From Nitrosomonas sp. (lineage in GTDB: Bacteria > Pseudomonadota > Gammaproteobacteria > Burkholderiales > Nitrosomonadaceae): a stretch of 64,000 nt of DNA. A program made the position numbers and the translations under genes. Location: assembly GCA_024281825.1 (NCBI GenBank), contig JAMWZY010000002.1, forward strand, positions 248,001 through 312,000, written 5' to 3'. Shown one piece after another: positions 43,341-47,442 of the stretch. The notes under the pieces are model-generated. The model searched no databases and was not told the DNA's origin. It saw nothing but the letters and a program-made list of their open reading frames with translations. Positions within the stretch are counted from its first letter, which is position 1; the number at the start of each line of letters is the position of its first letter.

Positions 43341-43733
43341 ATATTTTGAGGTATATAAAAAAACGATTTGGAACTTCACTTTCCTGCCTTTCTTTTTAAA
43401 TCTACGAATCTTTTCAACGCTAAACATCATTTCTTATAACACTCTTGCACTCAGCATATTCTCATAAAATTATTGTAAACAATATTTTTTCTAAATGTTT
43501 TCAGAAAAATCACTTAAATCGTTTGTTATTTTTACCAATCAAAAATTATTATTATTGATTAGCAAGAAAAATATCTCCCAATCTTCATAACTAAGAAACT
43601 GTAAAACAAGGCATGGAATAGCAATTTACAGTCGATCATTCTCTATATTCGGAGGTTCGTATAAAAACTTGCATTTCCTAGAAAATAAATTATAATGATA
43701 ATCATTCTCATTAACAAGTATGATTACTATATT
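43341..43733. other. Divergent control region between EPS genes and hemP
   Basis: An AT-rich spacer of about 390 bp between the beta-barrel gene (minus) and hemP (plus). It holds the Fur box and poly-T/A tracts; no gene or RNA could be supported apart from the Fur site. Short open frames here lack homology and Shine-Dalgarno sites. Confidence 0.6.
43691..43709 (+). promoter_or_regulatory. Fur box upstream of hemP
   Basis: A 19-bp site matching the Fur consensus GATAATGATAATCATTATC at 17 of 19 positions. It lies 25 bp before the hemP ATG, overlapping the expected promoter, so Fur-iron would block transcription. Its position inside the longer open frame shows that frame is not translated from 43695. 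Confidence 0.85.
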
Positions 43734-43928
43734 ATGAATAAAATACATACCCCCCAACTTATTGACATAGATTCTAATTTTTATTCAAAAGGTTCAACAG
43801 AGAGCATCCAAAAAACTCTGGATAGCGAGTGGTTATTTAAAAATGGTGACATCGTGTTGATATCGCATAAAGGAGAGCAGTATTCATTGCGATGCACGCG
43901 TAATGGCAAGCTACTTTTGAACAAATAG
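43734..43928 (+). CDS. hemP: Hemin uptake protein HemP
   Basis: A 64-residue protein of the HemP family, small iron-regulated proteins found beside heme and iron uptake genes. The conserved C-terminal motif is visible: VLISHKGEQYSLRCTRNGKLLLNK. The frame is open from 43695, but that ATG sits inside the Fur box; the ATG at 43734 is 25 bp after it, so this start is preferred. Bacterioferritin follows. Confidence 0.85.
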   Translation: MNKIHTPQLIDIDSNFYSKGSTESIQKTLDSEWLFKNGDIVLISHKGEQYSLRCTRNGKLLLNK

Positions 43929-44121: not shown

Positions 44122-44586
44122 ATGAAAGGTAACATAGAGATTATCCGTCACTTAAACCAGCAACTACTGCATGAATTAACCGCTATTAATCAATATTTTC
44201 TACATGCTCGTATGTATAAAAACTGGGGGTTTCATAGTCTTGGCAAACATGAATTCGAAGAATCCTGCGAAGAAATGAAACATGCAGATGAATTAATTGA
44301 GCGGATTCTTTTTTTGGAAGGCTTACCCAATTTACAAGATCTAGGAAAATTAATGATCGGCGAAAATGCACAAGAATGCATTGCTTGCGATCTAAAACTT
44401 GAAATCAGCGCAAGAGAATCATTATTAAAAGCCATTGCAGCTTGTGAAACCGCAAACGATTTTATTTCTCGTGAATTATTTAAACATATACTTGAAGATA
44501 CTGAAGAACACATCGATTGGTTAGAAACACAGCTCGATGTCATGCAAAAAGTCGGCATTCAAAATTGGTTGCAAAGCCAGATGTAA
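44122..44586 (+). CDS. bfr: Bacterioferritin
   Basis: A 154-residue heme-binding iron-storage protein that oxidises Fe(II) and stores it in a 24-mer shell. Seen: Glu18, Glu51, Met52 (heme axial ligand), His54, Glu94 and His130 at the E. coli Bfr positions. The fifth acid ligand Glu127 is replaced by Thr (DTEEH versus xEExH), so one ferroxidase iron site is altered. A strong AGGAG precedes the ATG and an intrinsic terminator follows. It is downstream of the Fur-boxed hemP but 190 bp away, so it probably has its own promoter. Confidence 0.95.
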
Positions 44587-44599
44587 ATTTTTTCCAACA

Positions 44600-44633
44600 C
44601 TGCTGGAGTTCTCTTCCTTCTCCAGCAGTTTAT
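44600..44633 (+). terminator. Rho-independent terminator after bfr
   Basis: A perfect 9-bp stem (CTGCTGGAG / CTCCAGCAG) with an 11-nt loop, followed by TTTATT. It starts 14 bp after the bfr stop and separates bfr from the DUF2325/bufferin genes. Confidence 0.92.
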
Positions 44634-44710
44634 TGAGCCAGCCAGCCTAATCCTCCCAGGTCAGCAAGCGATTTTTTTACTCATGAAATAAAATTTCAGG
44701 AGGCTTGATC

Positions 44711-45418
44711 ATGAGAACCTTAAAAAACCCTGTGTTAGCAATCAGTAATGTATTTCAATCGATTACTACTAATCGACCTTCTGCATTCATCGATACTTTT
44801 TTAGTGTCTTGCCTTCAGAATCTCGAACTCCGTGCGTCACAAACCATAAAATTTTTGCTCTCCTATCAAAAATTAAATATTTCAAGTAAGTATCTCAGTC
44901 AGGATGATCCTGAAAAGCTGCTGTTCAAAAATACGCAACATAAAAAATCCACTCGAAATTCATTGCAATTAAAATCACAACCTAGACTGATCAAAACTTT
45001 GCCGGCAGAAAAATACAACATCATCAGACCAGTTAGCGCTCAGGATGAACATAATCTGTCAGGGCAATCTGTTTTATGTATTGGTGGCCGCATAAGCCTC
45101 TATACAGAATATGAACAATTTACTCATAAAATGGGAGCTCATTTTATGTCCTTTCACGGCGCACCGGATGACATACCTATTGAACGGCTACTACAGCTTT
45201 TGGAAAAAACAGATATGATTGTATGCCCGATTGACTGCATCAATCACCAAGTGTTCATTATTGTCAAATGCTATTGTCAGCTCTCTGAAAAACCTTGCGT
45301 TTTACTAGACAAATCGACATTGACTGCCTTTCAACAAGGGATTCACACATTGGCAAACTGGGCAAGCGGATTTTCCGATCTAACACAGAAAAAAATGAAA
45401 CACATCATTAGATTTTAA
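44711..45418 (+). CDS. DUF2325-family protein, first gene of the bufferin run
   Basis: 235 residues. A strong AGGAGG 7 bp before the ATG at 44711 fixes the start (a TTG at 44705 is less likely). The C-terminal third matches DUF2325: VLCIGGRISLYTEYEQFTHKMGAHFMSFHGAPDDIPIERLLQLLEKTDMIVCPIDCINHQVFIIVKCYCQ, with a Rossmann-like GG turn and three Cys (CPIDC, CYC) that could bind metal or respond to redox. The N-terminal 100 residues are basic and helical. Function is unknown. It is separated from bfr by a terminator and lies only 44 bp before the bufferin precursor, suggesting co-transcription. Confidence 0.8.
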   Translation: MRTLKNPVLAISNVFQSITTNRPSAFIDTFLVSCLQNLELRASQTIKFLLSYQKLNISSKYLSQDDPEKLLFKNTQHKKSTRNSLQLKSQPRLIKTLPAEKYNIIRPVSAQDEHNLSGQSVLCIGGRISLYTEYEQFTHKMGAHFMSFHGAPDDIPIERLLQLLEKTDMIVCPIDCINHQVFIIVKCYCQLSEKPCVLLDKSTLTAFQQGIHTLANWASGFSDLTQKKMKHIIRF

Positions 45419-45462
45419 CGTTATGATTTGGAGTTTCAATCTTAATTCTCAAAGGAAAATTT

Positions 45463-45801
45463 ATGTCTAAAAAAACGACAAAATCAGTTTCAATTGTATT
45501 AGGTACTGCTTTTGTTTCCACTCTGGCGATAAGCAATCTGTCAGCCAATACAGAAACGAATAATGCGAACCCTTTTGCAATGAAAGAGCTATCGGGTGGT
45601 TATATGCAATTAGCCCAAGCCGATGCCGCTGATAAATCCAAGCACGAAGATAAAAAACCGGCTCAGGAAGGTAAATGCGGTGAAGGAAAATGTGGCAACA
45701 AAGATGAAATGAAAAAGAATATGGAAGGTAAGTGTGGCGATAAGAAATCCGAAAAAGAAGGTAAATGCGGTGAAGGAAAATGCGGAAGCAATAAGAAATA
45801 A
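45463..45801 (+). CDS. bufA2: Bufferin-type RiPP precursor (HvfA/BufA2-like)
   Basis: 112 residues. An N-terminal signal peptide (ending LAISNLSA, about residue 28) precedes a Lys/Asp-rich spacer and a C-terminal region with five EGKCG motifs at residues 69-73, 74-78, 88-92, 99-103 and 104-108 (Cys72, 77, 91, 102, 107). In HvfA and bufferins an MNIO enzyme converts the Cys of such motifs to thio-oxazole/oxazolone-type groups that bind copper. The protein has no other Cys, so every Cys is a candidate core residue. A 26-bp coding repeat (45667-45692 and 45757-45782) underlies two of the motif pairs. The Shine-Dalgarno is AAAGGAAAA. hvfB and hvfC follow directly. Confidence 0.92.
45667..45782 (+). 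repeat. 26-bp direct repeat inside the bufferin core
   Basis: The 26-bp stretches 45667-45692 and 45757-45782 are identical and each encodes the double [10 protein letters not shown] motif. The single motif between them (88-92) is more diverged. Confidence 0.9.
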
Positions 45802-45830
45802 TCCAATTACTCAAATCCTTGCGCGATAAT

Positions 45831-46682
45831 ATGAGCTATCCTGTTCATGGTGCAGGGCTAGGACTACGGCGAGCGTTTATACGCTCGCTTTCGGATCATT
45901 CAACTGATAGCGTTAATTTCTGGGAAATTGCACCCGAGAACTGGGTAGGTGTGGGCGGTTATTTTGGCAAAAAACTTCACGAACTGACGGAAAAACACCC
46001 CTTCATTTGCCACGGCCTGTCACTCTCGATCGGCGGCCCTACTCCGCTCGATCAAGCATTTTTGCAGAAACTAAAGAAATTCCTGCATGAACACAATATT
46101 CTCTATTACAGCGAGCATCTGAGTTATTGCAGTGATGATGGTCATCTGTATGATTTGATGCCAATTCCATTCACCGAACAAGCGGTTCACTATGTTGCGA
46201 ATCGAATCAAGCAAGTACAAGAACAGTTAGAACAACGTATCGCAATCGAAAACGTCTCGTATTACGCCGCGCCGGGTCAAGAAATGGAAGAAATCGATTT
46301 TCTGAATGCGGTATTGCAAGAAGCCGATTGCGATCTGTTACTGGATGTCAATAATATCTATGTTAACAGTGTCAACCACGGTTATGACGCTCATACTTTT
46401 CTACAACGACTGCCTGCCGAACGTATTGCCTATATCCATATCGCCGGACATTACAATGAAGCCAAAGATCTGATAATTGACACACATGGCGCCAATGTAG
46501 TAGAACCAGTGTGGCAATTATTGAACAGTGCTTATCAACATTTTGGAATCATTCCGACCTTATTGGAGCGAGATTTCAACATACCATCGCTGCCAGAATT
46601 ATTGGGAGAAGTTGCTAGCATTCAAGCTATGCAAGCTAAATGGCAAGAAGAAAATCGTGAATATCATAAACGACGAGACTGA
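45831..46682 (+). CDS. bufB: MNIO (DUF692) multinuclear iron enzyme, HvfB/BufB
   Basis: A 283-residue TIM-barrel enzyme of the MNIO family that installs metal-binding groups on Cys residues of the precursor using a multi-iron centre and O2. Conserved metal-ligand motifs are visible: [53 protein letters not shown] and LLERDFNIP. The start is the ATG at 45831 (MSYPVHGAG), 29 bp after the precursor; the open frame extends to a TTG at 45819. The end overlaps the next gene by 26 bp. Confidence 0.95.
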
Positions 46683-47442
46683 CCGTAATAATTTTACCGC
46701 CCTACAATACGCTTTTGCAGCCTATATCCGCGATCCGCAAAAGAACTCTTGCCCTAAAGATATAGATCCACGACGTATGGATGTATACAGCGACTTATTT
46801 TATCGCAATATAGACGATTTTATCGCAAACACCTACCCAATATTGCGTCAAATTTTGCCGGATAACCACTGGCACGCCATGATACGTGATTATTTTTCCA
46901 ATCACTTAGCACATACGCCGTTATTTCCTGAAATGCCGCGGGAATTTCTTAAATATCTACAATATGAGCGTCATGCTTCTCCTGACGATCCCCCCTTCAT
47001 ATTGGAATTGGCGCATTACGAATGGATTGAACTCGCGATTTCTACCTTGGATGTAGAAATCGAACAAACAATTTTTGATCCTAATGGTGATTTGTTAACA
47101 GGCACCCCTGTGATTTCTCCATTAGCTTGGATGCTCAGCTACCACTTCCCAGTCCATCAAATCAGTCCTACTTTTCAACCACAAACCCCCTATAAAGAGC
47201 CTATTCATTTGATCGTTTATCGTGACGAAGATTTTGCCGTGCATTTTATGGAAGTTAATGTTGTCACTGCCCGTTTAATACAATTACTCAATAATACTCG
47301 TGAATCGAGTAAGTATTTATTACAACAAATTGCTGTTGAATTGAACCACCCAAACCCTGAAATAGTGATTCAAGGCGGCCTAGAAATCATAAAAAATTTG
47401 CAAGCACATCAAATAATTCTTGGCACAAAACATCTTCTTTAA
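46657..47442 (+). CDS. bufC: DUF2063 MNIO partner protein, HvfC/BufC
   Basis: About 261 residues. It matches the DUF2063 N-terminal domain: [79 protein letters not shown] and [13 protein letters not shown], followed by a C-terminal helical bundle. In characterised systems this partner recognises the precursor and helps the MNIO. The best start is the GTG at 46657 (VNIINDETD, preceded by AAGAAG), overlapping bufB by 26 bp; the open frame goes back to 46528. No HvfD/DoxX gene follows; the next gene is a GTPase after 227 bp. Confidence 0.88.

Follow-up and report, generated by a model that had tools for sequence, protein, structure and literature searches.

The DUF2325 gene that stands directly before an HvfABC-type peptide operon in the window (the whole stretch of 64,000 nucleotides of Nitrosomonas sp. 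DNA analysed here) is best explained as a member of another unit: hemP, bfr, an RNA element, DUF2325 and, in some relatives, a multicopper oxidase gene would make up a Fur-boxed iron-starvation locus, behind which hvfABC is a later arrival in three Nitrosomonas clades. We give this reading a probability of about two in three. It is built on gene order, Fur boxes, the conservation and covariation of the RNA, a deletion scar and distribution; from these we infer how the locus may be transcribed and processed, what its targets may be and what its proteins may do.

All features of the locus lie on the forward strand. A Fur box (TATAATGATAATCATTCTC, 43691..43709), matching the consensus at 17/19 positions, precedes hemP (43734..43928, start codon chosen by hand; PF10636, 52.4 bits, cut-off 25), and there follow in order bfr, for bacterioferritin (44122..44586; TIGR00754, 236 bits, cut-off 125.55; PF00210), a candidate Fur-controlled, BrrF-like small RNA (44594..44678), the gene of the 235-aa DUF2325 protein (44711..45418; PF10087, 61.1 bits, cut-off 33.6), hvfA (45463..45801), hvfB (45831..46682) and hvfC (46657..47442). 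Profile matches and translation place the last four genes where the first-pass annotation had them, and the spacing that it gave (44 bp from DUF2325 to the precursor gene, 29 bp from there to the MNIO gene, a 26-bp MNIO/DUF2063 overlap) was borne out, as was the strong Shine-Dalgarno sequence of DUF2325 (AGGAGG). It was also right to place bfr upstream, but the terminator said to isolate bfr did not stand up, and hemP, further upstream, had gone unmentioned.

DUF2325 was found in 118 of the 125 Nitrosomonadaceae genomes, including genomes that have no hvfB. In the 41 loci laid out, which were selected by hand, hemP lies upstream of it without exception, and bfr in 34. Twenty of these loci read hemP-bfr-DUF2325, eight the same with hvfABC added and four with both oxidase and hvfABC added; further orders are hemP-DUF2325 (4), hemP-DUF2325-oxidase (3) and hemP-bfr-DUF2325-oxidase (2). 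When named genomes were scanned with the DUF2325 alignment, 69 loci came up. Two are from Anderseniella; the others bear the names Nitrosomonas, Nitrosospira, Nitrosovibrio or Nitrosomonadaceae, apart from four with a higher rank only (L132, L140, L151, L180). Of the 69, hemP lies upstream on the same strand in 55, in 12 it does not, and in two no DUF2325 was called. The neighbours of DUF2325 in Anderseniella are imelysin and di-haem genes, and a long DUF2325 paralogue of N. europaea adjoins a CbiX/ferrochelatase-like gene and a TonB receptor gene.

Fur boxes are distributed in keeping with this arrangement. A box of at least 15/19 is present upstream of hemP in 60 of 75 distinct regions (shuffled mean, 11.7), and none of that quality upstream of bfr (59 regions), the oxidase gene (21) or hvfA (32). 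DUF2325 has such a box of its own in 6 of 78 upstream regions (L142, L164, L165, L170, L172, L179), and in all six of these loci it is not downstream of hemP. Elsewhere in the order, 18 of 34 DUF2325 loci of other families have a box that scores 14/19 or more, against shuffled means of 9.0 to 11.8. The presence of hemP upstream in all loci laid out, the boxes at hemP, the separate boxes where hemP is not upstream and the boxes in other families all argue for an iron locus, as does the setting of cj1384c, a DUF2325 gene of Campylobacter jejuni which, according to the accessible part of PMC9426514, is PerR-regulated and lies beside katA and a haem-trafficking gene. Common to the two is a DUF2325 protein in a setting of iron or haem and oxidative stress; cj1384c differs from the window gene in its length (104 aa), its place beside katA and its PerR control. 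DUF2325 had been presented as the head of the peptide operon; its place is instead in a hemP-(bfr)-DUF2325-(multicopper oxidase) locus of Nitrosomonadaceae that has a Fur box at its head.

The DUF2325 protein comprises a variable N-terminal part and an alpha/beta domain (alignments of 26 and 59 rows), and its structure model is confident over about residues 111-220. Cys123, Cys172, Asp175, Cys176 and His179 are invariant over the 59 rows; a (W)APLIK-like motif, diverged in the window protein, is found in most of the 26 aligned N-termini. The protein is probably cytosolic, with a C-x3-C-x2-H cluster that binds metal, haem or a reactive thiol partner, and this is the weakest step of the interpretation. 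According to a figure legend in the accessible part of PMC6934571, an encapsulin system of anammox bacteria may carry DUF2325 as secondary cargo.

The RNA element consists of a CU-rich stem-loop (44599..44629, -16.3 kcal/mol, tail TTATTGAGCC), a box (AGCCAGCCAGCC), a small hairpin, a second box that has diverged in the window, and a T-run; the run, of seven T, occupies 44672-44678, and the second hairpin, which is small and conserved, lies shortly before it. Boxes of the form AGCCAGCC are carried by the conserved element as a whole (44594-44678). Over 45 distinct aligned rows, pairing holds in 97.1% of cells and 11 of 17 pairs have changed on both sides; none of 500 shuffles reaches any of the five measures, and sliding the partners destroys the signal. 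Only the first helix is well tested in this way, the second being nearly invariant. A model of the element, R1, matches exactly once ahead of DUF2325 in every one of the 41 loci, and it matches 116 of the 125 family genomes, once in G000 (the window's genome) and up to six times in the Nitrosospira group. Among the seven loci scanned no Rfam family reached its gathering score, the best overlap in the window being LhrC, over the stem-loop, at 20.1 of the 110 bits needed; PrrF scored 18.7 of 90 bits on the opposite strand, at the Fur box.

DUF2325 is preceded by an interval of 114-125 nt in 37 of the 41 loci, whether bfr or hemP comes before it, and one of the four outliers stems from a hand-picked start codon. 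Such regularity, the single match upstream of each DUF2325 gene, the end of the RNA 32 bp before DUF2325 in the window and a loop UCUCC complementary to GGAGA are what a cis-acting leader would lead one to expect: an attenuator or translational switch of DUF2325, in which the loop pairs with AGGAG, or the T-run stops transcription, according to iron status. We regard this as the alternative with most to commend it and still as doubtful; its odds overlap with those of the iron-starvation locus, since it is compatible with the iron-locus part of that reading. What it explains poorly are copies of the RNA found apart from DUF2325. Thirteen copies of the Nitrosospira group were examined, some of them near-duplicates; in 11 a Fur box scoring 14/19 or better lies no more than 300 nt upstream, and 12 have no hemP, bfr or DUF2325 recognised (by BLAST with the window's proteins) within about 1.8 kb. 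Two of the Nitrosospira-group copies in L344-L354 sit just before a gene of 720-753 aa. In Nitrosomonas and in other families further copies follow bfr or hemP, some with no DUF2325 recognised next to them, and the loop is kept in several loci that have no GGAG ribosome site.

The stem-loop directly downstream of bfr had been taken for a terminator. Were it an ordinary terminator, DUF2325 and hvfABC would form a separate operon with its own promoter, a possibility for which the position and stability of the stem (-16.3 kcal/mol) speak but which we judge improbable. No T-run follows the hairpin, the run of seven T starting 42 nt further on; the conserved loop and boxes exceed what a terminator needs; and the same element lies behind hemP in the 7 of 41 loci that have no bfr. 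The terminator scan did not report hairpin 44599-44629, whose loop of 11 nt is above the limit of 8 set in the scan. It is better read as the 5' stem of the conserved, covarying RNA.

Signs of the RNA extend beyond the family. R1 matches 32 of 200 genomes of the order sample at E 0.1; six belong to the window's genus, and the rest match mostly weakly. Ten of the extra-family matches start within or just after a same-strand hemP match, as compared by eye. Of 26 readable loci, 15 have twin AGCCAGC boxes in the 200 nt that follow hemP, as do 13 of the 24 outside the window's genus; none of 1300 dinucleotide shuffles and none of 1430 other sequence windows shows the pattern, which was defined after inspection of the regions downstream of hemP. 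Loci of other Burkholderiales families with twin boxes behind hemP are L365-L393.

RyhB and PrrF are Fur-repressed, iron-sparing RNAs with a Fur box of their own, and most of the Nitrosospira-group copies resemble them in having one; the window RNA differs from them in matching Rfam models only weakly, with none at gathering score. Both are also cited in the accessible part of PMC7377471, whose subject, BrrF (ncS63) of Burkholderia cenocepacia, offers the closer precedent: it is described there as cleaved from hemP mRNA, linked to Fur, ending in a U-run with no preceding stem-loop, and lowering the mRNAs of iron proteins. That text gives it as conserved, in every case behind hemP, in Burkholderia, Paraburkholderia, Pandoraea and Cupriavidus, with nothing similar reported outside Burkholderiales. 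Common to BrrF and the window RNA, so far as the source describes the former, are a Fur-boxed hemP upstream, a position 3' of hemP and a U-run, here at the putative end; the window RNA differs in lying behind bfr (as in most loci), in its core of about 85 nt against 126, in the DUF2325 gene that follows and in the separate Fur-boxed copies of the Nitrosospira group. The window RNA occupies a BrrF-type position, downstream of a hemP with a Fur box before it, with bfr between. Since place, control and, putatively, kind of end are common to both, the RNA likely works like BrrF, an analogy with an RNA known to us by description. The strings AGCCAGC and CCAGCC are absent from the main text of PMC7377471 in its accessible part, figures excluded. 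The literature on DUF2325, on Fur, iron or small RNAs (psRNAs included) of N. europaea, on oxidase, bfr and iron limitation in Nitrosomonas and on BrrF or hemP did not yield the RNA at the level of titles and opening lines of abstracts, subscription papers lying mostly outside this coverage. The occurrence of the RNA in most of the family genomes, its covariation, the Fur-boxed Nitrosospira copies, the twin boxes after hemP and the BrrF precedent together support its reading as a Fur-controlled small RNA.

The iron-starvation locus could then operate as follows. When iron is scarce Fur would leave the hemP box, and transcription of hemP-bfr would give rise to the RNA (44594-44678) by processing or by ending at the T-run, on the analogy of BrrF; the RNA would lower the levels of iron-rich proteins. 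Read-through would allow expression of DUF2325 and, in this lineage, of HvfABC, the terminator scan having reported nothing between them. HvfB and HvfC would turn the EGKCG cysteines of HvfA into a copper-binding peptide, as is known for their relatives, and DUF2325 may act under iron or oxidative stress through its C-x3-C-x2-H cluster.

Several observations weaken this explanation. A storage protein such as bacterioferritin is unusual in a Fur-repressed unit, and bfr would sit in one. Predicted pairing of the RNA with sodB starts lies below that of shuffles (1/100 as low) in 2 of the 10 genomes computed, and in G000 90/100 shuffles are as low; exact TGGCTGGCT sites are at background level in the genome (16, one of which is the RNA's own antisense, against 15 for the reversed pattern), and no iron genes were seen at them. 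None of six short Nitrosomonas DUF2325 paralogues examined has a Fur box of at least 14, and 9 of the 125 family genomes have no R1 match. The second, short DUF2325 gene of G000 (C5:144871-145128, L276) likewise has no box of at least 14.

The operon downstream is genuinely of the HvfABC type, as the first-pass annotation had it. HvfB, the MNIO enzyme (NF003818, 447 bits, cut-off 360; PF05114), and HvfC, its DUF2063 partner (NF050145, 299.8 bits, cut-off 142), exceed their profile cut-offs, and the translated precursor has KCG units, namely five EGKCG, and passes NF050137 (47.1 bits, cut-off 19.5); it scores 32.2 bits, below the cut-off of 95, with the HvfA equivalog NF050188, and its N-terminus, judged by eye, resembles a signal peptide. 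As had been noted, no HvfD/DoxX gene adjoins hvfABC, the next two genes encoding GTPases; two DoxX genes lie elsewhere in the genome. DoxX is not obligatory for such an operon, since the core genes occur 'in various combinations' according to the accessible part of PMC12452194; the EGKCG products of MNIO/DUF2063 pairs contain 5-thiooxazoles and bind copper, as set out in the corresponding part of PMC13097082. With the HvfABC(D), EGKCG bufferin and captophorin operons of these papers the window operon has in common the EGKCG precursor, the MNIO enzyme, the DUF2063 partner and their order; it differs in its want of an adjoining DoxX gene and in its place behind an iron locus. DUF2325 does not appear in the main text of either paper as far as this was accessible. 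A conserved gene of 240 aa adjoins hvfABC in 29 of the 62 loci of the tree set, with murJ next where the stretch is long enough. Its product (L104:3834-4556 and relatives), encoded divergently from hvfABC and next to murJ, has no Pfam match at E 0.01. Several Nitrosomonas loci have, after hvfC, genes for a histidine-kinase-like ATPase protein and a response-regulator/TPR protein (L104:6848-9283), possibly a sensor pair of the peptide operon.

Proximity of DUF2325 to this operon recurs in relatives and is not limited to the window's genome. HvfB-type matches were found in 97 of the 125 family genomes (91 above cut-off), and in at least 12 of the 97 no more than 2 kb separates DUF2325 from hvfB on the same contig (G000, G027, G029, G050, G062, G065, G067, G068, G069, G079, G081, G082), a minimum taken from coordinates, with weak DUF2325 matches left out and hvfB sometimes at the end of a contig; G036, where contig ends break the locus, is a likely thirteenth. 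Co-location is not regular: outside the family it is found in none of the 26 genomes with both genes in an order sample of 120, where HvfB matches are mostly below cut-off and the nearest pair on one contig is about 91 kb apart. The 13 linked genomes lie in three clades of the HvfB+HvfC tree, and the AU test retains a single clade (p 0.148 for HvfB+HvfC, 0.287 for Bfr+DUF2325).

The closeness of the junction itself has a history. DUF2325 and hvfA are separated by a gene for a two-domain multicopper oxidase in G062 (locus L070); G065 (L065) has a 146-bp gap in which a piece of the oxidase gene's 3' part survives; and in the window the last DUF2325 codons and the 44-bp gap (45384..45462) align locally to the 3' end of the L070 oxidase gene and the gap downstream of it. 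From this series it follows that a deletion brought DUF2325 directly next to hvfA, and that the 44-bp junction is, on alignment evidence, the scar left by loss of the oxidase gene in this lineage. The genome retains another oxidase elsewhere, at 47-49% identity. The scar supports the view of hvfABC as a later neighbour. That DUF2325 instead serves the peptide system as a sensor, chaperone or receptor for the HvfA-derived product, as originally suggested, could draw on its place directly before hvfA, or one oxidase gene away, in three clades and on the compatibility of a single origin of the linkage with the AU test, but is very improbable: it is unsupported given the genomes without hvfB, the hemP upstream in all 41 loci and the six loci with a Fur box of their own, there is no such adjacency by coordinates in the other 85 of the 97 family genomes nor in the 26 genomes of other families, and the close junction came of the oxidase deletion.

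A broader proposal, which we rate somewhat short of even odds, is that Fur-controlled small RNAs with twin AGCCAGC boxes in the hemP 3' region make up a family spanning the order, to which this RNA belongs. In ammonia oxidisers it would have become separated from hemP, come to lie behind bfr as the leader of DUF2325, and multiplied as Fur-boxed genes in the Nitrosospira group; hvfABC, placed behind it in three Nitrosomonas clades, would tie copper buffering to iron starvation.

The iron and copper requirements of ammonia oxidisers are high, and the RNA, if it is a Fur-controlled small RNA, would be a candidate iron-sparing regulator of these organisms. The reading of DUF2325 as a gene of a peptide pathway is corrected, its consistent setting being that of iron starvation. 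If the RNA is indeed a Fur-controlled small RNA, the hemP-linked RNA described for four genera in the accessible part of PMC7377471 would extend to further families.
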